From an uncultured Myxococcales bacterium (GTDB taxonomy: Bacteria; Myxococcota_A; Polyangia; Polyangiales; Polyangiaceae), in NCBI GenBank assembly GCA_937902985.1, contig CALFNG010000478.1:1-57942 (forward strand): a DNA stretch of 57,942 nt. Direction: 5' to 3'. Below, piece by piece: positions 34,052 through 46,857 of the stretch (positions are counted from its first letter, which is position 1; every line of letters begins with the position of its first letter). The notes beneath the pieces were generated by a model. The model saw only the letters and a program-made list of their open reading frames with translations, made no database searches and had not been told where the DNA came from. The position numbers and the translations under genes are program-made.

Positions 34052-35029
34052 CTAGTGAGCGCGAAGGGATGCGTCGACGAGGTTGGCCAGGGCGCAGTTG
34101 TTGGCCTGGCGCTGCAGGGCGTCTTTGGTTTCGTCGTCGCTGATGGCTCGCTCGCCGGCCTGGATGAACCGACCGCCGCCGGAGCGGCGCAAACGAACGA
34201 GGGGCTTGTTGTCTTTGAGCTCGAAGACGAAGACGCGCGCGGGGTGCGGCACGAGCTGCAACGCCGCCTCGGTCATCGGGCCGCCATCGACGAACTCCGC
34301 CGCTTCCGGCACGTCTTCGTCGAGCACAAGCAAGAAGAACTGCGCTCGCTTCACGACGTCGATGGCGATCGGGATCTCGTCGCGGATCGCCTTGTCGTAC
34401 TGCTGTACGAACACCCGTAGGCGAAGGTCGTCATCGGCGTCCTTCACGTCGGTGACCCACTCGTCGGTCAGGATTCGCGTCGCCGCGTAAGCCTGGCCGA
34501 GGTTCCACGGCTGCTCGGCGAAGGCGCCGCCGTCGATCTCGCCCCGCAGCCCGCGCTCGTTGGTCTCCCGCAGCAGGCAGGCCGCGAAGCCGTCGCGCTT
34601 CGCGTCGGCCGCGATCGCGCGAATGCTCTTCGGGGTCGTTGCGTCGGCCAGGCGCATGCGGAGGTAGATCCCCGGCTGCGACCGAAAGTCGGACGTGCGA
34701 GCCGCCGGCGCGATGTCGTCGCCTGGGTAGTCGCCCTTGCCGTCGGCCCCGGCCGCGTCGAGCACGTCGTGCTCCAGGTTGTCACGCAGGGGAAGCCACT
34801 CGGTTCCCAACGTTGCCACGACGGCGCGTTGCTTCGAGAGCAGCGCTTGCCGGCCGGTGTTGAGCTCGTGCTCGCTGACGAACTTGTGCGCGATGAGCCC
34901 CGCGATGACCGCTCCGCCGGCGACGAGCCCCGCCTGCGCGGTCCACCGCGTCTCGCCTCGCGCCCGAGCGTCTCGAGCCTGGGCGATGCTCCCGAGGCCG
35001 CGAGGGCCTTTGCGTCTCAGATCAGCCAT
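34052..35029 (-). CDS. membrane-anchored protein of unknown function
   Basis: 325 residues. After a basic N-terminus a single hydrophobic helix (AGLVAGGAVIAGLIAHKFV, about 33-51) would anchor it with the rest outside the cytoplasm. The soluble part has charged helices and beta segments (PGIYLRMRLAD, DLRLRVFVQQYD, ARVFVFELKDN) but no family I recognise. No Cys cluster or catalytic triad stands out. It is read in the same direction as the ExbD/TolQ triad, 118 bp downstream of it, and could be an accessory part of that envelope complex. The gap between them holds a single-arm copy of the dispersed repeat. Confidence 0.65.
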   Translation of the reverse strand: MADLRRKGPRGLGSIAQARDARARGETRWTAQAGLVAGGAVIAGLIAHKFVSEHELNTGRQALLSKQRAVVATLGTEWLPLRDNLEHDVLDAAGADGKGDYPGDDIAPAARTSDFRSQPGIYLRMRLADATTPKSIRAIAADAKRDGFAACLLRETNERGLRGEIDGGAFAEQPWNLGQAYAATRILTDEWVTDVKDADDDLRLRVFVQQYDKAIRDEIPIAIDVVKRAQFFLLVLDEDVPEAAEFVDGGPMTEAALQLVPHPARVFVFELKDNKPLVRLRRSGGGRFIQAGERAISDDETKDALQRQANNCALANLVDASLRAH

Positions 35030-35147: not shown

Positions 35148-35693
35148 TCAGTGCGCCGCGCTCTTCGGAAGGTTGTTCACCATGAAGCTCACGTTCGGGA
35201 AGCCCGCGAACGCCGCCGTCTGGAACACGCTCTTCACGATGACGGCTTTGACTTCCTGGTCGATCTGCAAGAGCACCACGCCCGGAAAGTCCTTGGTCGG
35301 GTGGGTCTGCTTCCAGAGCTCGCGCTTGGCCTTCAGGAGATTGAAGAGCTCGTCGATGCGCTGCATCCGGTCCGACTCTTCGATCGGCCGGGTGTTCCCC
35401 GCCGGCCCGCCGTCGACCAGGATCTGGCTGCCCACGACCACGACGATGGGCGCGTCGATCATGTCGAGCGTGTTCTCGGCCTTGGGCATGTTGAGGCCCT
35501 TGGCAACGGGGGTCTCGCCGCTGGCGCTGAACGTCATCAGGAGAAAAACGACGGTCACGACGAGGAAGTCGATCATGCTCGTCAGCGACAGACCCGCCGC
35601 AAGCGGGCGCTTGCCGTGGCCCTGGATCTTCTTCTCTACGAACTCGAGCCCCACGTGATGCATGAGGCGACGGGTGGGCGCTGTAATGGCCAT
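35148..35693 (-). CDS. ExbD/TolR-family protein (AglS/AglQ-like stator subunit)
   Basis: 181-residue biopolymer-transport protein. A single N-terminal helix SLTSMIDFLVVTVVFLLMTF carries the family's essential proton-binding Asp at about 42, followed by a periplasmic domain of about 115 residues (QIDQEVKAVIVKSVFQTA is the typical ExbD strand pair). It lacks a peptidoglycan-binding OmpA-like domain. It is the third gene of a minus-strand TolQ-ExbD-ExbD set. Two ExbD genes with one TolQ is the arrangement of the Myxococcus AglRQS gliding motor, which is my reason for suggesting that family. TolR-type use cannot be excluded. Confidence 0.85.
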   Translation of the reverse strand: MAITAPTRRLMHHVGLEFVEKKIQGHGKRPLAAGLSLTSMIDFLVVTVVFLLMTFSASGETPVAKGLNMPKAENTLDMIDAPIVVVVGSQILVDGGPAGNTRPIEESDRMQRIDELFNLLKAKRELWKQTHPTKDFPGVVLLQIDQEVKAVIVKSVFQTAAFAGFPNVSFMVNNLPKSAAH

Positions 35694-35705
35694 GGTCGTC
35701 TGCTC

Positions 35706-36281
35706 TCAGTTCACGGCGAAGGTGATGTTGAACGCGGGCAGCTTTTCGGTCTTGGGGCCGAGCTGTATGTCGCGGTGAGTGCCATACACCGCGTCGATGA
35801 CGCCGATGATGTACTTGAACTCGGTCTTGTTGTCGGTGTGCAGGATCGCCTGATCGAGCTTGCGGTCGGTCGGATTCGAATGCTGGCCCTTGGCCTTCCA
35901 CTCGCTCGCCACCTTGTCCGCCAGGTCGGGGAATCGCACGACTTCGACGGCGCCCTCTTGGGTCACCACGTCTTTGCGGGGCACGTCGATCGAGTCGACC
36001 GTGGTGCTCCCTTGCTTCCAGACGAGCACGAACTTCTCTTCCTCGCGCATCTCGATGTGGAGCTGCTTCTCGGGCTCGGTCTTCTCTTGTTCGACGTCAG
36101 GGCGCGGGGGACCTGGCACCTGCGCGTCGGCGTTGATGCGCGCCATGTGCGTCCAGACCGCCGTGATCAGCAGGAACGAGATGGTAACCATCAAGAGATC
36201 GATCATCGGGATCATGTTGATCTCCGAGTCGAGCGACTTTCGCTTGCCGCCACCGCCGCCGCCAACGTCAACGCCACCCAT
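35706..36281 (-). CDS. ExbD/TolR-family protein (AglQ-like stator subunit)
   Basis: 191-residue ExbD-family protein. After a Gly-rich N-terminus, EINMIPMIDLLMVTISFLLI is the membrane helix with the proton-carrying Asp at residue 28. The periplasmic part is rich in charged residues and ends in a beta domain (FKYIIGVIDAVYG, LPAFNITFAVN). Twelve bases separate it from the next ExbD gene and 110 bases from the TolQ gene, so all three are probably one operon. Its sequence differs from its neighbour, suggesting a hetero-dimeric stator pair. Confidence 0.85.
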   Translation of the reverse strand: MGGVDVGGGGGGKRKSLDSEINMIPMIDLLMVTISFLLITAVWTHMARINADAQVPGPPRPDVEQEKTEPEKQLHIEMREEEKFVLVWKQGSTTVDSIDVPRKDVVTQEGAVEVVRFPDLADKVASEWKAKGQHSNPTDRKLDQAILHTDNKTEFKYIIGVIDAVYGTHRDIQLGPKTEKLPAFNITFAVN

Positions 36282-36391
36282 GTGCTGCTCCGTGTGTTCT
36301 CAACGTCGAGTCTTCACCGCCGCGGAGCTCGCACTCGTTGCGAGCCCCGCGACGTTTCTGATTGGAGGTCCTGGCCCTGCTCGAAGTTCCC

Positions 36392-37045
36392 TCAGCCGCC
36401 GATGCCGGCCATATTGACCTTCTGCCGGTTGGTGACGACCAGGTTGAGGACCTGGACGCTCGCCTCGTTGATGTCGTCTTCGAGCCCCTGCGTCTTGCCG
36501 TTGAGAACGGCGAAGGCGACGAGCGCGATGATGGCGACGATCAACCCGAAGGCCGTGCAGTTCATGGCCTCGGAGATGCCCTCGGCGAGGATTCTCGCCT
36601 TCTGGCTCGGGTCGACGCTCTCGCCGGAGACCGCGCCGAAGCTCGTAATCAGACCGGCCACGGTACCGAGGAGACCGCTGAGCATCGCTAGGTTCGCGAG
36701 CAAAGCGAGGTAACCCGTTCGCTTCGCGATCTTCGGGATCTCCCGAAGCGCTGCCTCATCCATGGCCGCCTGAACTTCTTCGTCCGGACGGTTCACCTTG
36801 ACGAGACCTGCCTGAACGATCCGCGCGAGCGGCGCGTTCGCGGCCGAACACATCTTCACAGCCTTGGCGATGTCGCCCGCGAGAATGCACTTCTGCATCG
36901 TCGCGAGGAACACGTCCTTGTTAATCGAGGAGCCATACAAGTAGAGGGCACGCTCGACGATCACGCCGATCTCCATGATCGACCAGAAGAGGATGATGTA
37001 CATCCCCCATCCGCCTTCTTTGAAATGCTTCCACGCAGCAGCCAT
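36392..37045 (-). CDS. MotA/TolQ/ExbB-family proton channel protein (AglR-like)
   Basis: 217-residue inner-membrane protein with three predicted helices: GMYIILFWSIMEIGVIVERAL (about 14-34), YLALLANLAMLSGLLGTVAGL (about 115-135) and AFGLIVAIIALVAFAVL (about 165-181). The LLGTVAGLI and EGISEAMNCTAFGL patterns are the TolQ/ExbB channel signatures. It forms the proton path with the two ExbD proteins. I placed the start at the ATG 37045 because GGAGG lies eight bases upstream; the longer open frame upstream is Arg-rich and lacks a site. It resembles AglR of Myxococcus in gene order; TolQ or ExbB function is possible. Confidence 0.87.
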   Translation of the reverse strand: MAAAWKHFKEGGWGMYIILFWSIMEIGVIVERALYLYGSSINKDVFLATMQKCILAGDIAKAVKMCSAANAPLARIVQAGLVKVNRPDEEVQAAMDEAALREIPKIAKRTGYLALLANLAMLSGLLGTVAGLITSFGAVSGESVDPSQKARILAEGISEAMNCTAFGLIVAIIALVAFAVLNGKTQGLEDDINEASVQVLNLVVTNRQKVNMAGIGG

Positions 37046-38405
37046 CGAACCGTCCTCCGTCAGGTTTTTTCGTCGACCGACCCACGCCGCCCTCCGTTGT
37101 TCGGGGAGCGTTGATTTGCGAGAGGCGCCGGCGGTTTTGTGAGCTTGCGAGCAGCGAGCTGAAGACCTCGAGCGATGCCGTCCGGCAACGCGTTTGCGTC
37201 GCGCCTGTCGAGCGAGCCGCGGCGACACGTTATCTGAACGAATCCGTTCGAAGCAAGCGACTCACGTCAAGGGCTACGAACATCACGAGCGTGACAGGTG
37301 AGACCAAAGCCCGTCAAGCGAGTTTGGGGGTCGGACCCCGTCGGAGACGTTCTCGAGAGGTCACGAAAGAACACAAAATTCAATGTGTTAACGAATGTTC
37401 TTGTGATGGTGTAATCCTTAGGACCGGCATTCGCGGCCGCTCTCTTCACCAAGCGAACGTTGCCAAGGTCGCCGACGTCATACCAGCGCGCCAGGGTACG
37501 CTTGCTGGGTTCCGAACAGTTCTGAAGCATCTGAAGCAGGGGAGGCGCGAGAGCCTCGGCGTGTTCGAGGTCGGGGGCGCTTTCCTCGACGCATCGACGC
37601 AGCGCCGCGACGCCGCCGGATAGTGCGTGACCCGCGGGGCACGCATTCGGTTCCGGTCCCGCGCCCGCGTTTCGGGGTGATCCATTTCGGCGGCGGCCGC
37701 TACCGGTGAGTGGTGCCCGGTGCGCTTAGTGAGAGGCGGCCGGAGGGCGGATCGAGTCGATGGCCAAGGTAGACCGTAAGAAGGGTGGCGAGCGCGTTGC
37801 CGCGGCGAGCGGGGGGCGATTGTGGATCGTGGCTCGTGCTCGTGATCGTGATCATGCTCGGGCTCGTGATCGCGATTGCGACCACGAGCCTGCTCGGGCT
37901 CGCTCGCCGCAGTCGTTTTGGTGGAAAGAGACAATCGACACGGGTGGCGGTTTGTGGTGCAGTAGCCTGCTGCGGCGTGGCCTGTTTCGAGAGCTCGTCG
38001 CTCTCGGGAGGCTTCACGCTCCCCTCTTCAAAGTGCACGCGACCTTCACCGACGCCGAGGCCAGGTTGACCCGAAGTGGAGCCGAGCGCGGGCAACGGCA
38101 ACGTGACCCGGACGGAACGGTGGGCGCGGCGCAACAGGGCTCGAAGAGCCGCCCGAGAGCGAATGTGAAGGCGAGCGCCAAGGCGAGCGCCAAGGCGAGC
38201 GCCAAGGCGAGCGCCAAGGCGACAGTGTGCGTGCCAACGAACGAAGTACGCGACCGATTTCCCTTTTTCAAAGCGCGTCCCGCTATACTGGCGCGCGGTC
38301 GATCGAGTTGAGCAGGTCGAGCGAGTCTGAGCGAGCGTCCCGCAACCTGAGCGGCGGCAGCGAGCGGTCAGCGGATCCAAAGAATTCAGAAAGGAGCGTC
38401 GGGGA
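37046..38405. promoter_or_regulatory. 1.36-kb divergent intergenic region between two motor operons
   Basis: No convincing gene. It holds a low-GC patch at 37365-37415 with the inverted repeat AACACA-N8-TGTGTT at 37370-37389, a good operator candidate, and a small GC hairpin GGGGTC-ACCCC near 37326. At 37829-37905 is a degenerate CTCGTGATCGTGATC-type repeat, and at 38170-38222 a 12-bp tandem array. AAAGGAG just before 38406 is the ribosome site for the plus-strand triad. Several open frames here have low-complexity, Ala/Leu- or His-rich translations and are not called. Such a long divergent gap suggests dedicated control of both operons. Confidence 0.45.
38170..38222. repeat. 12-bp tandem repeat, GGCGAGCGCCAA, 4.4 copies
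   Basis: Four perfect copies of GGCGAGCGCCAA run from 38170 to 38217, then a partial copy. The unit is a multiple of three and self-complementary in part (GGCG/CGCC), so it reads as Ala-Ser-Ala-Lys on one strand and Ala-Leu on the other. It lies 180 bp upstream of the plus-strand TolQ gene. Confidence 0.8.
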
Positions 38406-39095
38406 ATGTTGGTGGTCCTAGTTGCGGAGCAGGCGGCGCAGGCGGCGAGCGGGAGCTCGGGCCTGATGGGCGCCTTCAAAGAGCGCCCGACATTCCTGGT
38501 CGCCAACCTCGTGGTGAGCGCGGTCGTCGTCGCGATGATCGTCGAGCGCGTCGCGTTCCAGCTCTCGAAATACAGTGTCAACTCGAAAGAGTTCTTCGCG
38601 CAGATCAAGAAGCTCGTCACGGCCGGCAACATCGACCGCGCGATCAAGCTTTGCGACGCGGGCGACTATCCGACACTCCAGCTCGTGAAAGCCGGGCTGA
38701 CCCACGCGAACAAGGGACCCGACGAGATCGACGCCGCCATGAGCGAGAAGATGGGCGAGCTCCGGCCGGCCGTCGAGAAGCGCGTCGGGTCGCTCTGGTC
38801 GCTCGCCAACATCGCGACCCTCATCGGTCTCATCGGAACGGTCGTCGGTTTGATCACGACCTTCAGCGCCGTGTCGGATCCGCGACTCTCGGCGGCGCAG
38901 CGCCAGGCGCAGCTGTCGCTCGGCATCTCGGAGGCCATGTACAACACGGCCTTCGGTCTCGGCATCGCCGTGACCTGCATGATCGCGCACCTCTTCTTGC
39001 ACCAGCGCGCGAAGAACATTCAGCACGACCTGGACGCGACGCAGGAGCGTGTTTTCAACCTGCTCACGATCCAAACCCGTCCCGGCGGCTACTGA
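38406..39095 (+). CDS. MotA/TolQ/ExbB-family proton channel protein (second, AglR-like)
   Basis: 229-residue inner-membrane channel protein, the plus-strand counterpart of the TolQ gene at 36392-37045. Helices lie at about 28-48 (RPTFLVANLVVSAVVVAMIV), 135-160 (ANIATLIGLIGTVVGLITTF) and 185-205 (FGLGIAVTCMIAHLFL). The pattern GLIGTVVGLITTFSAV and LGISEAMYNTAFGL is diagnostic. AAAGGAG lies nine bases before the ATG. Two ExbD genes follow. The two TolQ proteins are similar but not identical, so they probably serve separate or nested motors. Exact partner system unknown. Confidence 0.88.
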   Translation: MLVVLVAEQAAQAASGSSGLMGAFKERPTFLVANLVVSAVVVAMIVERVAFQLSKYSVNSKEFFAQIKKLVTAGNIDRAIKLCDAGDYPTLQLVKAGLTHANKGPDEIDAAMSEKMGELRPAVEKRVGSLWSLANIATLIGLIGTVVGLITTFSAVSDPRLSAAQRQAQLSLGISEAMYNTAFGLGIAVTCMIAHLFLHQRAKNIQHDLDATQERVFNLLTIQTRPGGY

Positions 39096-39113
39096 TCGGG
39101 GACGGAGCCGCAG

Positions 39114-39680
39114 ATGCCGGAGCCCGTCGAGAAGCTCAGCGCAGCGCAGCGAAGCAGGATCCGCCGCCTGTCGATGCCGAAGGAGCTCGCGCCCGATGAA
39201 GAGGGCGGCGAGCTCAACATCATCCCGTTCCTCGACATCATCACCAACGTGTTGATGTTCGTCCTCGCGACGATTTCGGTCACGTTCACCACGATGATCG
39301 ACTCCGAGCCGCCGCGCGCCGGTGGTTCGAGCGCCCGGGCTCCCACGAAGCCGACCCTGTCGCTCAACATCATCGTCGTCGACAAGGGGTTCATCGTGTC
39401 GGCGTTCGGCCAGCGCATCGGCGAAGGCTGCACGGGGCCCGGGTCGGGAACCGCTGTCGGCCTCGTCTCTGGCAGCACCAACTACGACTTCCCCGCCCTC
39501 ACCGCGTGCGCCAAGCGCCTGAAGAACCAGGTGCCCGAAGCGGCCGACGAGACCGCGGCGACGCTGACCGCCAACAAGGACATCCCCTACCAGGTCATCA
39601 TCGGCACCATCGACGCGATCCGAAAGGGCGACGACGGGCAGGAGCTCTTCCCCGACATCAACTTCGGAGTTCCCAAGTGA
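39114..39680 (+). CDS. ExbD/TolR-family protein (third)
   Basis: 188 residues. A basic leader (about 1-35) precedes the helix LNIIPFLDIITNVLMFVLAT, with the essential Asp at about 41. The periplasmic part has a Gly/Ser/Ala spacer, then beta strands with SLNIIVVDKGFIVSAFG and PYQVIIGTIDAIRKGDDG. It starts 18 bp after the TolQ stop, with GGGGACGGAG as a likely ribosome site. Its stop overlaps the start of the next ExbD gene (GTGA), so the two are coupled and are expected in equal amounts. It has no OmpA-like peptidoglycan domain. Confidence 0.87.
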   Translation: MPEPVEKLSAAQRSRIRRLSMPKELAPDEEGGELNIIPFLDIITNVLMFVLATISVTFTTMIDSEPPRAGGSSARAPTKPTLSLNIIVVDKGFIVSAFGQRIGEGCTGPGSGTAVGLVSGSTNYDFPALTACAKRLKNQVPEAADETAATLTANKDIPYQVIIGTIDAIRKGDDGQELFPDINFGVPK

Positions 39681-40327
39681 ACCAGCCGCCGGTCGATCAG
39701 CCGCCGACAGGTCCGGTCGGGCCGGCGCGCCCGCCGCAGAAGCCTGCGAGCATGGTGACTTACAAGCGCGAGCTCCGGAAGGCGATCGCGAAGAACAAGG
39801 TCGAGCCGGAGATCACGTTCCTCAACATCACCGCGATGATGGACATGATGACCATCATCCTGGTGTTCTTGCTCAAGAGCCTGAGCAACTCGCCGGCGTC
39901 GCTGCCGCAGTCGCAAGACCTGCAGCTGCCGAAGAGTATCCTGACCACGGAGCCGGACAGCGAGCCCGAGGGCCTCGCGGTCATCGTCTCGAAGTCGCAG
40001 CTCATCGTCGGCGAGACGGTCGTCTGCCCGGTGCCTCCCGACGCGGCGCAGTACGGCGTCGAGGCCAAGTACAAGCGCGGCTCCCGCAACGACTACTTCA
40101 TCGTGCCCCTCGGCAGCTCGCTCCAGTCGTGGCGCGACTCGGACAAGCGAATCCGCATGGCCACGGGCAAGGACCCGACCCACAGCGAAGCCATAATCAT
40201 CGCAGACTCGTTCACCCCCTACCGCCTCCTCACCGAGGTCATGTACACGCTGGGCCAGACCGAGTTCTCGAAGTTCCACATGATGGTCCTTCAGGGCGGC
40301 GGCAAGATGGGAACGCCGACTCCCTAG
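39677..40327 (+). CDS. ExbD/TolR-family protein (fourth)
   Basis: 216 residues starting at GTG 39677, inside the preceding stop. A Pro-rich leader (VNQPPVDQPPTGPVGPARPP) is followed by a basic segment and the helix ITFLNITAMMDMMTIILVFL with its Asp at about 56. The periplasmic domain contains GLAVIVSKSQLIVGETVVC and ends with AIIIADSFTPYRLLTEVMYT. The longer open frame upstream is a shadow of the previous gene. Second ExbD of this triad; same hetero-pair logic as the minus-strand set. It ends inside a perfect palindrome. Confidence 0.86.
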   Translation: MNQPPVDQPPTGPVGPARPPQKPASMVTYKRELRKAIAKNKVEPEITFLNITAMMDMMTIILVFLLKSLSNSPASLPQSQDLQLPKSILTTEPDSEPEGLAVIVSKSQLIVGETVVCPVPPDAAQYGVEAKYKRGSRNDYFIVPLGSSLQSWRDSDKRIRMATGKDPTHSEAIIIADSFTPYRLLTEVMYTLGQTEFSKFHMMVLQGGGKMGTPTP

Positions 40328-40795: not shown

Positions 40796-41956
40796 TCACA
40801 ATCCGAGCCGCTGCGTCGTGCGGCTCGGCGAGGCGTAGAAGCGGCGCATCGAGACGTTCATCACGAGGCCGACCCCCAGCAAGACAGTCATGACGCTCGA
40901 CCCGCCGTACGAGAAGAGAGGCAGCGTCACGCCGACGATGGGCAAGAGGCCCGTGGCCATGCCCAGGTTGAACACGGCGTGCCAGAAGATGATGCTCCCG
41001 ACGCCGACCGCGAGCACGGCACCGAACCGATCCTTCGCCATCGAGGCGACCCGGAGGCACCAGAGAACGAGCAGGCCGTAGAGGCCGACGAGCAGGAGGC
41101 TGCCCGCGAAGCCCCACTCTTCGGCGAAGACGGGGAAGGGGAAGTCGCTGTGCTGTTCGTGCAAGAACATGAACTGGTTCTGGGAGCCGCGCATGAAGCC
41201 CTGCCCGAACCAGCCGCCATTTCCGACGGCGATGCGCGCCTGGTGCGGGTCCCAGTTGAACCCGAGCACGTTCACGTTCGGGTTGAGCCACGCGTTGATG
41301 CGCTCGTTCTGGTAGCCGCGCAGGCCATAGCTCCAGAACACGGGCGCCAGGATCAGTCCGACGACGCCGAGCCAGATCAGGCTCCGCGTCTGCACGCGCG
41401 TGAGCGCGCAGATCGACAGGAACACGAGCACGAGGATCAGGCCCGTCCCGAGGTCGGGCTGGAGCATGACGAGCGCCGTCGGCACCGCCGCGATGACCGC
41501 GGGCACGGCGAGGTCCTTCAGCGTGCGCCCCTCGCTCTTCGGATCGTCGTGCAGGTACTTGGCCAGCGCGATCACGAGGAAGAGCTTCATGAACTCGCTC
41601 GGCTGAAAGCTGTACGAGCCGATGTAGATCCAGCGCGAGCTCCCGCGGATCTCGCGCCCGAGGATGAAGACGAGGAGCAAGAGCACGACGCCGACCGCGT
41701 AGACCGCGTAGCCGAGGCGCTCGTAATGGCGGTAGTCGATCACGGCGGCGACGGTGGCGAGGATGCCGCCGCCCACGAGCCAGTAGATCTGCTGGATGTA
41801 GTCCTCGGCGTGGGCGCCGCGGGCGACGCTCGTGGCCGAGTACAGGTTGATGACGCCGATGACGGCGAGGGTGGCGACCGTGATGAAGAGCAGCCAGTCG
41901 AAGTGCTCGCGCGCCCGCCCCAGCAGGCCGCCGCCGTCGTCGAGACGAAGGGTCAT
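40796..41956 (-). CDS. rodA: RodA, SEDS peptidoglycan polymerase
   Basis: 386-residue polytopic membrane protein of the SEDS family, which polymerises glycan strands from lipid II during cell elongation together with PBP2. Diagnostic parts are SSRWIYIGSYSFQPSEFMKL, QPDLGTGLILVLVFL, FGQGFMRGSQNQFMFLHEQH, DFPFPVFAEEWGFAGSLLL, and TGLLPIVGVTLPLFSYGGSS. The ATG at 41956 overlaps the mrdA stop (ATGA). Last gene of the mreBCD-mrdA-rodA cluster. Highly secure. Confidence 0.95.
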   Translation of the reverse strand: MTLRLDDGGGLLGRAREHFDWLLFITVATLAVIGVINLYSATSVARGAHAEDYIQQIYWLVGGGILATVAAVIDYRHYERLGYAVYAVGVVLLLLVFILGREIRGSSRWIYIGSYSFQPSEFMKLFLVIALAKYLHDDPKSEGRTLKDLAVPAVIAAVPTALVMLQPDLGTGLILVLVFLSICALTRVQTRSLIWLGVVGLILAPVFWSYGLRGYQNERINAWLNPNVNVLGFNWDPHQARIAVGNGGWFGQGFMRGSQNQFMFLHEQHSDFPFPVFAEEWGFAGSLLLVGLYGLLVLWCLRVASMAKDRFGAVLAVGVGSIIFWHAVFNLGMATGLLPIVGVTLPLFSYGGSSVMTVLLGVGLVMNVSMRRFYASPSRTTQRLGL

Positions 41957-43992
41957 GGCCGCGGTCCCGGCCTTCCCGGCGGCGACTTGGCCGAAGGAGC
42001 GCGACCGGCGCGGACCGCCTGGAGGCGCTCGTACTCGTGCACGATCTGCATCGCGACCGGCACGGCGACCTCGGGACCGGAGCCGCCGTGCTGCACCAGG
42101 ACCGTGACGGCAATCTCGGGGTTGTGCGCGGGCGCGAAGCTCGAAAACCAGGCGTGGTTCTGCGAGAGGAACCACGCCATCTTGGCGTCGTCTTCCTTCT
42201 TCACGACGTAGCCGGTCTGCGCCGTGCCGGTCTTGCCCGCGACGTCGAGCGTGGGGTCGCGGGCGGGGTAGGCGGTGCCGCTCGGGTCGTTGACCACGTC
42301 GTAGAGGGCATCGGTGACGCGCCGGAGGTTGTCGGGCGCGATCGGTACCTGCCGCCGGATGCGGGGCGGAAACTCTTGCACGACCGCGCCGTCGCTCGTC
42401 TCGACGGCGCGGACGACCTGGGGCTGGTATAGCGTTCCCCCGTTCGCGATCGCCGCGTACGCGGTCGCGAGCTGCAGCGGCGTGACGGTCACGTCGCCCT
42501 CGCCGATGGCCATGTTGAGCGTGAAGCCGACGCGGAACTGTCCGCGGTACCGGAGCGCGTACCACGAGCGCGTGGGGATGCGCCCCGGCGCCTCGGGGTT
42601 GATGCCCAGGCCGGTCTTGTCGCCGAGGCCGAAGGCCTGCGCCACGCGCGCGATCCGGTCCATGCCCACGGTCTCGGCGAGGTGGAAGAAATACACGTTA
42701 CACGATCGCGCGATGGCATCGTGCAGGCGGACCTTGCCGTGCACGTGGCTGCAGCGGAAGACGCGCCGCCCGAAGACGACGTACCCCTCGCACTTCTCGG
42801 TGTGGTCCGGATCGATGACGTGGTCTTCGAGCCCGGCGAGCGCGCTGAAGGGCTTCATCGTCGAGCCGGGCTGGAAGGCGCCGCTCATCGTCTTGTCGAG
42901 CATCGGACGCAGCGGATCGGCGTACATCCGGTTGTACGCCTCGCGAACACGCGCGCGGCCCGCCCCGCCCGAAAGATCGTTGGGGTCGAAGTCGGGCTTC
43001 GAATAGAGGGCGAGCAGGCGCCCCGTACGCACATCGACGACCACGGCCGCGCCGGCCGCGTGGGGGCGCATCGCGCGCTCGATGGCCTGCTCGAGCTCGA
43101 CGTCGATCGAGAGGCGTAGATCGCGCCCGGGGATCGGATCCATGCGCGGCGGCGCGTCGACCAGCTGCTCCGTCTCGGGGCCCGAGCGGTAGCGGCCTCG
43201 CGCGTCGACCACGCGCTTCTCCCAGCCGCGCTGGCCCCGGAGATACGACTCCCACGCGCGCTCGATGCCCGTGGCGCCGACGGTGTCGCCCGCCTCGTAG
43301 CCGAGCGGATTGGCGCGCTGCTGCTCCTCGCGCGCGAGGTCTTCGTAGCCCTTGGGCCGGTACTTGAGGAGCGTCTCGGAGTCGACCTCCGCGACGTACC
43401 CGAGCATGTGCGCCCCGAGGTCCTTGTAAGGATAGAACCGCACCGGGACGCCCACGACGTCGACCCCGGCGAGCTCGTCGTGGTGTTGTTTCAGCTCCGC
43501 CACGATGTCGCGTGAGACGTCTTCGCGTACGAGGATGGGCGTGTGCCAGCAGGGCGATTTGTCTTCGTCGCTCACGCAGGCGGCGCGCACGCGGGCCTCG
43601 AAGGTTCGCTTCTCCTCGGGGTTGAGCCGGAGGACCTCGGCGAGCTTCGGCCACGAGTCGGGATCGCGGGCGACGGGCAGGCCGTTTCGGTAGCGCACCG
43701 GCCGAGCGCTCGGCATGACGCGCCCGGGGACGATCTCGACGTCGTACGAAGGGCGGCTCGACGCGAGCACCTTGCCGTAGGCGTCGCGGATGACGCCGCG
43801 GGTGGTAGGGAGCACGACCCTGCGGATGATGTTCTCGTGAGCGATGGTCGCGTACTCGGCGCCGTCGAGGGCCTGGAGCTGAAACAGCCGGCCGACGATG
43901 ACCACGAACGCGAGGAACGCGCCCAGGGCCATCCACTTGTAGCGCCGGCGAAACTCGCCCACGTCGGAGCGGGGGAGCAGCAGGTTGCTCAT
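41953..43992 (-). CDS. mrdA: penicillin-binding protein 2 (MrdA)
   Basis: 679-residue class B penicillin-binding protein, the elongation transpeptidase that cross-links new peptidoglycan. One N-terminal helix (about 19-38) anchors it. The transpeptidase motifs are intact: GSTMKP with Ser 377 and Lys 380, SCN at 430-432, and KTGT starting at 587. The pedestal region VVLPTTRGVIRDAYGKVLAS is typical. An extra Cys-containing segment (CVSDEDKSPC, about 139-148) is present. The ATG at 43992 overlaps the mreD stop (ATGA). The longer open frame upstream is antisense-type shadow over mreD. Works with RodA. Confidence 0.95.
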   Translation of the reverse strand: MSNLLLPRSDVGEFRRRYKWMALGAFLAFVVIVGRLFQLQALDGAEYATIAHENIIRRVVLPTTRGVIRDAYGKVLASSRPSYDVEIVPGRVMPSARPVRYRNGLPVARDPDSWPKLAEVLRLNPEEKRTFEARVRAACVSDEDKSPCWHTPILVREDVSRDIVAELKQHHDELAGVDVVGVPVRFYPYKDLGAHMLGYVAEVDSETLLKYRPKGYEDLAREEQQRANPLGYEAGDTVGATGIERAWESYLRGQRGWEKRVVDARGRYRSGPETEQLVDAPPRMDPIPGRDLRLSIDVELEQAIERAMRPHAAGAAVVVDVRTGRLLALYSKPDFDPNDLSGGAGRARVREAYNRMYADPLRPMLDKTMSGAFQPGSTMKPFSALAGLEDHVIDPDHTEKCEGYVVFGRRVFRCSHVHGKVRLHDAIARSCNVYFFHLAETVGMDRIARVAQAFGLGDKTGLGINPEAPGRIPTRSWYALRYRGQFRVGFTLNMAIGEGDVTVTPLQLATAYAAIANGGTLYQPQVVRAVETSDGAVVQEFPPRIRRQVPIAPDNLRRVTDALYDVVNDPSGTAYPARDPTLDVAGKTGTAQTGYVVKKEDDAKMAWFLSQNHAWFSSFAPAHNPEIAVTVLVQHGGSGPEVAVPVAMQIVHEYERLQAVRAGRAPSAKSPPGRPGPRP

Positions 43993-44696
43993 GACATCGC
44001 CCCGGCCTCGGCGCGCGGGCTGTTGCCGGTCGCCACGTGCAGCGCTTGCGCGAAGCGGAAGACGATGGGCGCGACGGCCGCGGTCGCGACCGCGTGCGGC
44101 AAGGTGAGCGGATAGAGCGAGCGGGGCACCCACGCGTCGCGCCCGAAGATCGCGAGGAGCACCAGCACCATCGTGCTCTGCAAGACGGCGAAGGCGCCCA
44201 CGAGGAGCACCTGCATCCACGTGGTCTGGGCCGCGAGCCGCACGCCCGCCGCGCGCGCGAGCACGAACGTGGCCACGTACGTGAACGTGTAGAGGCCCAC
44301 CGGGGCGATGCCGATGACGTCCGTGGCGTAGCCGAGGACGAAGGCCACCGCGGCGCCGCGGGCGAGCGAGTACTCGTGCACGCCCATGAAGAGGATGATC
44401 GGCAAGACCAGCGCCGGGATGGGTCGGCCGACCCGCGTATGCCCAAACGCCACGAGGAGCGTGTAGCCGAGGAGCACCGTCGCCGGCAGGACGAGATCGG
44501 GCCGGAAGGCGGCGATGGCGCCGGGGCGACCCGGAGCGCCCCGCATCTGACGGATCATGCTTGCGGCGTCGAGCCCGAGCGCGGCGATCCACACGGCGAC
44601 GGCCACGGCGACGGGGATCCCGTCGAGCGCGCGGAACACGTTCGCCTGGAGCATGAGCAGCCCGAGGCCCAGCGCGAGGAACGCGACGTTGCGCAT
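43989..44696 (-). CDS. mreD: rod shape-determining protein MreD
   Basis: 235-residue integral membrane protein with about five or six helices, part of the elongasome linking MreC to the SEDS/PBP2 enzymes. It lacks strong motifs, as MreD does. Position directly after mreC (start one base past the mreC stop) and before mrdA (ATGA overlap), together with the hydrophobic pattern GYATDVIGIAPVGLYTFTYV, supports the call. A polar loop (GAPGRPGAIAAFRPD) sits in the first third. Identification rests mostly on gene order. Confidence 0.85.
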   Translation of the reverse strand: MRNVAFLALGLGLLMLQANVFRALDGIPVAVAVAVWIAALGLDAASMIRQMRGAPGRPGAIAAFRPDLVLPATVLLGYTLLVAFGHTRVGRPIPALVLPIILFMGVHEYSLARGAAVAFVLGYATDVIGIAPVGLYTFTYVATFVLARAAGVRLAAQTTWMQVLLVGAFAVLQSTMVLVLLAIFGRDAWVPRSLYPLTLPHAVATAAVAPIVFRFAQALHVATGNSPRAEAGAMS

Positions 44697-44697
44697 G

Positions 44698-45600
44698 TCA
44701 CGGCCTGCTGCGGGGGCCGCCCGGAGCCTGGTTCCCTGCGGTGCTGGGGGATAACGACGATCCCTCGTCTCCGGGTGACGTCACGAGGACGAGGACGTCG
44801 TCGAGGCGCGAGAAGTCGACCGTCGGGGCGGCGTCGACGTCCTGGTCGCGCCCGAGCTCCCGCTTGACGACCCTGGTCACGCGCGCAACCGGGATGCCGC
44901 GCGGGAACCAGCGGCCCTTGCCGCTCGTCACGAGGAGATCGCCGATCTCGACGTCGTCGCGCGAGTCGACCATCTCGACTTTGCATCCGTAACGCGCAGG
45001 GTCGCCGGTTCCGCGAACGAAGCCGCGAGCGCGCGTACGCTGGTCTTCGACGTCGACGCCGAAGGCCGCGTCGACCGCGAGCTGCACGTCGACCGTGTCG
45101 CCCGAGACGTGCAGGACGGCCCCGACGACGCCGTCGGGCGCGATCACCGGCATGTGCGAGCGCACGTCCCGCGCGCCCTTGTCGAGCACCATGCGCGTCA
45201 CGCGAAAGAACTCGGTGAAGTCTTTGCCGATGACCTGCGCGCTCACCGCGTCGCCGGGCGTCGAGTCTTTCAGCTGCAAGAGGCGCCGGAGCTGGCGGCT
45301 CTCCACCTGCGCTTGCTCGAGCGAGCGCACCTGCTCGCGGAGGCGCGCGTTGTCGTACGCCAGTCGCTCGTTGTCGTGCTTCACGTCGACCAGGTAGACG
45401 TAGTCGTCCCAGACGTCGCCGACGCCGCGCGCCACCATCGCGACCGCCACCTCGACGGGCGCCGAGATCCGCAAGATCGCCCGGTCCATCGCGCTCTGGT
45501 TCTCGAGCGACTTCATGTTCGCCTTGAGCACGAAGAACGGGACCGCGAGCAGAGCGACGACGATAGCGGCGTCTCGCGCGCGTTTGAGAGTGGGGGACAC
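44698..45600 (-). CDS. mreC: rod shape-determining protein MreC
   Basis: 300-residue bitopic protein: short cytoplasmic N-terminus, one helix (AAIVVALLAVPFFVLKA, about 11-27), then a coiled coil (about 70-105) and a beta-rich periplasmic domain (VSAQVIGKDFTEFFRVTRMV, GVVGAVLHVSGDTVDVQLAV) that bridges to PBP2. The start is GTG at 45600. It follows mreB by 81 bp. The Ser/Pro/Gly-rich tail of about 20 residues is probably unstructured. Secure from motif and order. Confidence 0.92.
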   Translation of the reverse strand: MSPTLKRARDAAIVVALLAVPFFVLKANMKSLENQSAMDRAILRISAPVEVAVAMVARGVGDVWDDYVYLVDVKHDNERLAYDNARLREQVRSLEQAQVESRQLRRLLQLKDSTPGDAVSAQVIGKDFTEFFRVTRMVLDKGARDVRSHMPVIAPDGVVGAVLHVSGDTVDVQLAVDAAFGVDVEDQRTRARGFVRGTGDPARYGCKVEMVDSRDDVEIGDLLVTSGKGRWFPRGIPVARVTRVVKRELGRDQDVDAAPTVDFSRLDDVLVLVTSPGDEGSSLSPSTAGNQAPGGPRSRP

Positions 45601-45681
45601 TGCGCTCTCTACCTCGTCCGCCGTCGCGAGGGCGGGTCGTCGAACGGCCGCGCTCGTCGAACGGCCGCGCTCAAGCGAACG

Positions 45682-46857
<1,176 letters not shown>

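Follow-up and report, generated by a model that had tools for sequence, protein, structure and literature searches.

Two divergent gene triads, each of one TolQ-type and two ExbD-type genes, lie within the 57,942-nucleotide window analysed here (positions 1 to 57,942 of contig CALFNG010000478.1, from GenBank assembly GCA_937902985.1 of an uncultured Myxococcales bacterium of the family Polyangiaceae): set A at 35148-37054 on the reverse strand and set B at 38406-40327 on the forward strand. We consider it probable that they encode two separate proton-driven motors of the Agl type, each powering a different Glt-type machine encoded elsewhere in the genome, with B serving a Wza-linked machine and A a gliding-type one.

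Two triads and their relatives

The genes of the two operons and the region that separates them are as follows.

36392-37054, reverse strand: A-type TolQ/AglR-like channel protein, 220 residues (PF01618, E 3e-25 for the 239-residue version)
35706-36281, reverse strand: A-type first ExbD, 191 residues (PF02472, E 3.5e-11), membrane Asp at residue 28
35148-35693, reverse strand: A-type second ExbD, 181 residues (PF02472, E 6e-12), membrane Asp at residue 42
34055-35029, reverse strand: fourth gene of the A operon, 325 residues, directly downstream of the A ExbDs
37055-38405, no strand: shared divergent upstream region of the A and B operons, ∼1.35 kb between the TolQ genes
38406-39095, forward strand: B-type TolQ/AglR-like channel protein, 229 residues (PF01618, E 1e-23)
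39114-39680, forward strand: B-type first ExbD, 188 residues (PF02472, E 1.5e-8), membrane Asp at residue 41
39677-40327, forward strand: B-type second ExbD, 216 residues (PF02472, E 2e-8), membrane Asp at residue 56

The six-gene layout had been proposed in an earlier note on this DNA (the original prediction) and was confirmed by the open reading frame listing and by Pfam, whose cut-offs all six TolQ/ExbD scores exceeded; the fourth gene of the A operon had been overlooked. The prediction that every ExbD keeps its proton-carrying Asp also held, the residue numbers given above depending on the start codons chosen, as did the claim that a peptidoglycan-binding domain is missing: an OmpA-type domain of this kind was absent from all four ExbDs, for which Pfam shows the ExbD domain only. 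For the A TolQ, the ATG at 37054 (220 residues) agrees with relatives, and longer in-frame starts are found at 37111 or 37228. The start of the second B ExbD overlaps the preceding stop by four bases.

Among 190 genomes of this phylum that were at least 95% complete, none was recognisably Myxococcia. Set A was present in about 90 genomes of the same family or order at this completeness, save one fragmented genome, and its TolQ orthologues share 62-89% identity among complete Polyangiales genomes. All 58 relatives have the B TolQ, as a rule in divergent orientation to the A TolQ and ∼1-2 kb from it; the six-gene arrangement is therefore far from chance. This head-to-head pair is conserved in nearly every relative within the order (Polyangiales). 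Outside the order, A-type and B-type triads are mostly separate; G263, a genome of the same class, again has them head to head.

In phylogenetic trees, the A-type triads formed one clade (Shimodaira-Hasegawa-like approximate likelihood ratio test, SH-aLRT, 99), and A, B and the motors borne within Glt operons grouped together against the Tol, Ton and other ExbB-type outgroups taken from this genome (SH-aLRT 95), rather than A and B falling into a TolQ/TolR or ExbB/ExbD clade. B was nested inside the motors that other classes carry within Glt operons.

B and the Wza-linked operon

Scanning contigs with the AglR-like proteins found in other classes gave 80 loci, mainly from Bradymonadia and Nannocystis-type genomes, from which profiles were built. 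The operon in these classes encodes two large TPR proteins and a TPR lipoprotein (gltC/gltD/gltE-like), a small gene, then TolQ, ExbD, ExbD and a GltG-like protein, followed downstream by a small protein, an outer-membrane barrel and a Wza-like lipoprotein. The genome studied here has a matching operon on contig C205 (NCBIfam matches to GltC at 2.8e-13, GltE at 3.9e-23 and GltG at 8.9e-19), complete except for the three motor genes between the small gene and gltG. The motorless operon was also found at 17 other Polyangiales loci, with exactly the three motor genes gone. In one genome of another class (G167) the motor is still in the operon and A and B-like triads are present as well; in G065 only a weaker TolQ-like gene is left in the operon. 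The likeliest reading is that B is the displaced motor of this gltC-gltD-gltE-gltG operon with its barrel and Wza-like lipoprotein.

At two motorless operons (L294: 9336-10094; L295: 7370-8116), a frame of 249-253 residues with trace TolQ similarity only (25 and 17 bits) stands between the small gene and gltG, and is possibly the relic of a lost motor gene. A third Glt-like cluster, also without motor genes, was seen on contig C364 of the genome studied here (G000, L250: 9252-15744); it encodes a TPR protein, a TPR lipoprotein, a small gene and a 490-residue protein with an AgmX/PglI C-terminal domain.

A and the gliding-type cluster

The second motorless Glt-type machine of this genome is a gliding-type cluster spread over contigs C224 (gltC, gltD and a gltE-like gene), C375 (an FHA-type GltG whose full length is matched by NCBIfam gliding_GltG, 8.7e-89) and C527 (a giant TPR protein of 3798 residues; Myxococcus xanthus GltI has 4132, PMC3169522). 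No motor genes were found in the gliding-type cluster in any genome examined, and in one genome (G197) the FHA-type GltG adjoins the A triad. Most likely A drives this cluster, which would then correspond to the AglRQS-powered machine of M. xanthus. With two such motorless machines in the genome and B nesting among Glt-operon motors, the Agl-type family membership proposed by the original prediction was upheld.

The published numbers for AglQ (162 residues with key residue D28; PMC3169522, PMC3858216) are also suggestive. A-type first ExbDs outside Polyangiaceae have their Asp at about residue 27-28 with ∼136 residues after it, and thus resemble AglQ in Asp position and tail length, a likeness of published numbers only; B-type and operon-borne first ExbDs do not fit the AglQ numbers.

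Co-loss and rate covariation

In one genus, the genomes G006 (98% complete) and G134 (100%) carry the A operon intact, fourth gene included, but lack B. In both, the best matches to the operon-type GltG are only the tails of the FHA type, and the gliding-type cluster is kept. The operon GltG is present in four congeners (E 1e-103 to 1e-107), of which three were inspected, all with A and B side by side. The loss of B thus went along with that of the Wza-linked operon, and A was retained along with the gliding-type cluster. Two further candidates for B loss (G211 and G045) were rejected because in both the A TolQ lies at or close to the contig end.

Rate covariation, taken as pairwise-distance correlations and expressed as partial r, showed the same pairing for the two GltG types. 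The operon GltG covaried with B (0.48, and 0.63 within the order) more than with A (0.32), and the FHA-type GltG with A (0.70, and 0.71 within the order) as opposed to B (−0.49); both correlations were stable on leaving out taxa.

Published two-hybrid data, in which AglR is reported to bind GltG and MXAN_3003 of the second M. xanthus motor not to (PMC3858216), also speak for two separate motors. The suggestion in the original prediction of a focal-adhesion motor is only half supported: A alone tracks the gliding-type cluster, and B tracks the Wza-linked operon.

Alternative explanations

The likeness to Agl motors could also be superficial, the two triads belonging to transport or envelope-stability systems of the Tol or Ton kind, but this is very unlikely. 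The closest solved relatives are TolQ and ExbB, TolQR (Tol-Pal) and ExbBD (Ton) have the proton-channel superfamily (PF01618 and PF02472) in common with A and B, and the top NCBIfam matches of the A and B proteins are TolQ, ExbB and TolR. However, all of these hits fall far under the curated equivalog cut-offs for TolQ, TolR, ExbB and ExbD; the two TolQs score 69.9 and 54.5 bits against a tolQ cut-off of 221, and 50.0 and 30.6 bits against an exbB cut-off of 206.2. The known systems have one ExbD or TolR, whereas A and B have two dissimilar ExbDs each, and B is nested among Glt-operon motors. Tol and Ton systems are moreover accompanied by TolA/TolB/Pal or TonB, and such genes lie elsewhere in this genome, which has seven MotA/TolQ/ExbB-type and eight ExbD-type genes: a complete Tol-Pal set is on contig C370 (an OmpA/Pal-like gene, TolQ, TolR and TolB), and contigs C125 and C407 each carry ExbB, ExbD and a TonB-like protein. 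None of TonB, TolA, TolB or Pal adjoins set A or set B, as had been predicted. The genome's MotA and MotB are encoded on contig C304, and A and B, in which only PF01618 and PF02472 were found and neither an OmpA-type domain nor a MotA N-terminal domain, do not qualify as MotAB. Agl-type motors, as opposed to Tol, Ton or Mot systems, are thus supported. As a separate observation, the MotA and MotB genes of C304 stand beside flagellar rod genes (G000, L048: 5774-11398), which is unexpected in a Polyangiaceae-like myxobacterium.

The original prediction had left the choice between duplicate motors and a hetero-motor, in which the two TolQs and four kinds of ExbD would form shared complexes serving all Glt machines. 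A hetero-motor would suit the single divergent upstream region common to both operons across the order, which fits coordinated expression, and one M. xanthus motor is known to serve two transducer complexes, Glt and Nfs (PMC3858216). We nevertheless judge it unlikely because B alone was lost from G006 and G134 with A intact, the TolQs of A and B share only 38% identity and the two types of triad are mostly apart outside the order; separate motors are favoured. If separate, both motors could still drive gliding, for example at different speed or torque, with the Wza-linked operon powered otherwise, and the B-linked operon does contain gltC/D/E/G-like genes as the gliding cluster does. This is quite unlikely, though, given that the operon co-lost with B was the Wza-linked one, the gliding-type cluster being kept, and that B nests with motors still inside the Wza-linked operon.

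Several points weigh against the assignment of two separate motors to two different machines. The trees contain no M. xanthus AglRQS sequences, and gliding of this organism is not in evidence. Bradymonadia have the gliding-type cluster without any A triad. The cluster can thus do without A, and the FHA-type GltG was rejected as an exclusive partner of A as a rule. Both cases of co-loss are from the same genus and probably go back to a single event. Two less complete genomes (G003 and G010, 80-83%) have the operon GltG and B was not found in them, which probably reflects assembly gaps. Rate covariation was mixed for other genes, with the operon barrel and p190 following A, and the positive control (the A TolQ against its own first ExbD) gave −0.35. 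Because of this mixture, and because divergence in one family was faster for B and the operon alike, we treat covariation as supporting evidence only.

Proposed mechanism

In 5:2 motors, a TolQ-type ring and an ExbD dimer rotate or pump using the proton gradient. By analogy, each motor here would consist of a ring of TolQ/AglR-like subunits around an axle of two different ExbDs, each with a proton-binding Asp. Driven by protons, the ExbD pair would rotate or pump within the ring, a TonB-like GltG carrying the movement to the outer membrane. A would then deliver force to the FHA-type GltG machine, so that cells glide or surface adhesins move. B would do so for the Wza-linked machine, which probably handles or moves an exported surface polymer. 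The genes and their conservation, the motorless operons, the loss of B with its operon and the Asp pattern were observed directly, whereas we infer the 5:2 ring architecture, the proton flow, the GltG contact and the cellular roles of A and B.

The twin locus would show an ancestral motor-plus-transducer operon splitting into machines with separately encoded motors. It also indicates which motor to delete first when studying gliding in Sorangium-type myxobacteria, to which the literature that we found assigns no motor.

Proton-binding sites of the ExbD pairs

Among 83 triads inside a Glt operon, the membrane Asp was present only in the second ExbD in 76, only in the first in 4, in both in 3 and in neither in 0. 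Exactly one membrane Asp is therefore found in 80 of 83 operon-borne triads, as compared to both in all 62 triads clearly outside such operons (36/36 A and 26/26 B-like); all Polyangiales B triads keep both. Five further triads near contig ends, where the context is unreadable, comprise one with both Asp and four with one. In operon-borne triads, the Asp of the first ExbD is mostly replaced by N, G, S or A. Four changes of Asp state suffice on the tree, which offers three independent pairs only, too few for the link between Asp number and operon location to reach significance.

Since the Asp losses are reciprocal, a single proton site seems to be enough for each ExbD pair, and the two ExbDs seem to share one axle. 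Agl-type motors might then come in two designs, an operon-borne, obligate hetero-axle with exactly one proton-binding ExbD and a free-standing form with two sites, to which A and B would belong, a proposal that we put forward tentatively and hold to be somewhat short of an even chance. AglQ and AglS have both been described with a membrane Asp, and their stoichiometry was stated to be unknown; whether the ExbD-like subunits of gliding motors form a heterodimer or two homodimers is an open question (PMC9389320). Triads with one and with two Asp make this question directly testable, since a homodimer devoid of Asp would be expected not to function. If the two-design proposal is true, the ExbDs would work as a heterodimer, and a natural comparison of one-site and two-site 5:2 motors would be at hand.

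Variant triads were also observed. On contig C717 of G263 (L074: 7499-8800), a single 434-residue frame joins a TolQ-type and an ExbD-type protein in a natural channel-axle fusion, which would constrain stoichiometry; it adjoins two further A-type TolQ genes and one ExbD. Contig C379 of G087 (L244: 7700-10179) has a tandem pair of A-type TolQ genes followed by one ExbD pair, suggesting a mixed TolQ ring. At L189 (7953-11850), two TolQ-ExbD-ExbD triads stand in tandem on the same strand, with Asp in all four ExbDs and no GltG gene.

Fourth gene of the A operon and flanking genes

The fourth gene of the A operon was kept in all 16 Polyangiales A/B loci examined and retained in both genomes that lost B. 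Pfam and NCBIfam searches gave no family for it. Its product is anchored by a single N-terminal membrane helix and has an alpha/beta domain in the periplasm (AlphaFold predicted local distance difference test score 86.7), for which Foldseek returned no match below E 0.001, and the best VIA-align Z of 6.3, to small envelope lipoproteins and PelC-like domains, was within background. We regard it as a candidate A-specific coupling or assembly factor.

No conserved gene was seen in the ∼1.35-kb gap between the two TolQ genes, which contains a perfect 12-bp tandem repeat (AAGGCGAGCGCC) of 4.6 copies at 38168-38222. Beyond B lies one further operon.

40796-46716, reverse strand: rod-shape operon mreB-mreC-mreD-PBP2-rodA (PF01098, PF00905), convergent with B

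MreB is tied to the Agl motors (AglRQS) in M. xanthus. However, mre genes adjoin the motor locus in only 5 of 20 other Polyangiales loci tested, a part of the family only, and the adjacency was rejected as a functional hint because it is not conserved. The loci with mreBCD-PBP2-rodA neighbours are L051, L389, L395, L396 and L398, one of them in a genome without B.

Comparison with known systems

The Tol-Pal system of M. xanthus has AglX and AglV as its TolQ and TolR (PMC3169522). The motor AglRQS of the same species (cluster M1, MXAN_6862-6860) likewise combines one TolQ-type gene with two dissimilar ExbD-type genes, all three apart from the glt operon, with a membrane Asp in both ExbDs and glt-type genes elsewhere in the genome, a likeness of gene make-up and of published lengths and positions rather than of compared sequences. 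It differs in being a single triad, whereas two are adjacent here, A has a fourth operon gene and the Wza-linked Glt operon has no motor. The second M. xanthus cluster, M2 (MXAN_3003-3005), is dispensable for motility and sporulation, and its MXAN_3003 binds neither GltG nor NfsG (PMC3858216). This behaviour is as expected of a B-type motor, by description rather than by sequence, although no adjacency of M1 and M2 is reported in M. xanthus. Finally, the make-up of the Agl-Glt core complex of Luciano et al. 2011 (gltD, E, G and C with aglR, Q and S in one region) is matched by the operon-borne relatives, in whose clade B is nested. In this order, by contrast, the motor genes lie outside the operon, both ExbDs keep their Asp, and the operon adds a barrel and a Wza-like gene.

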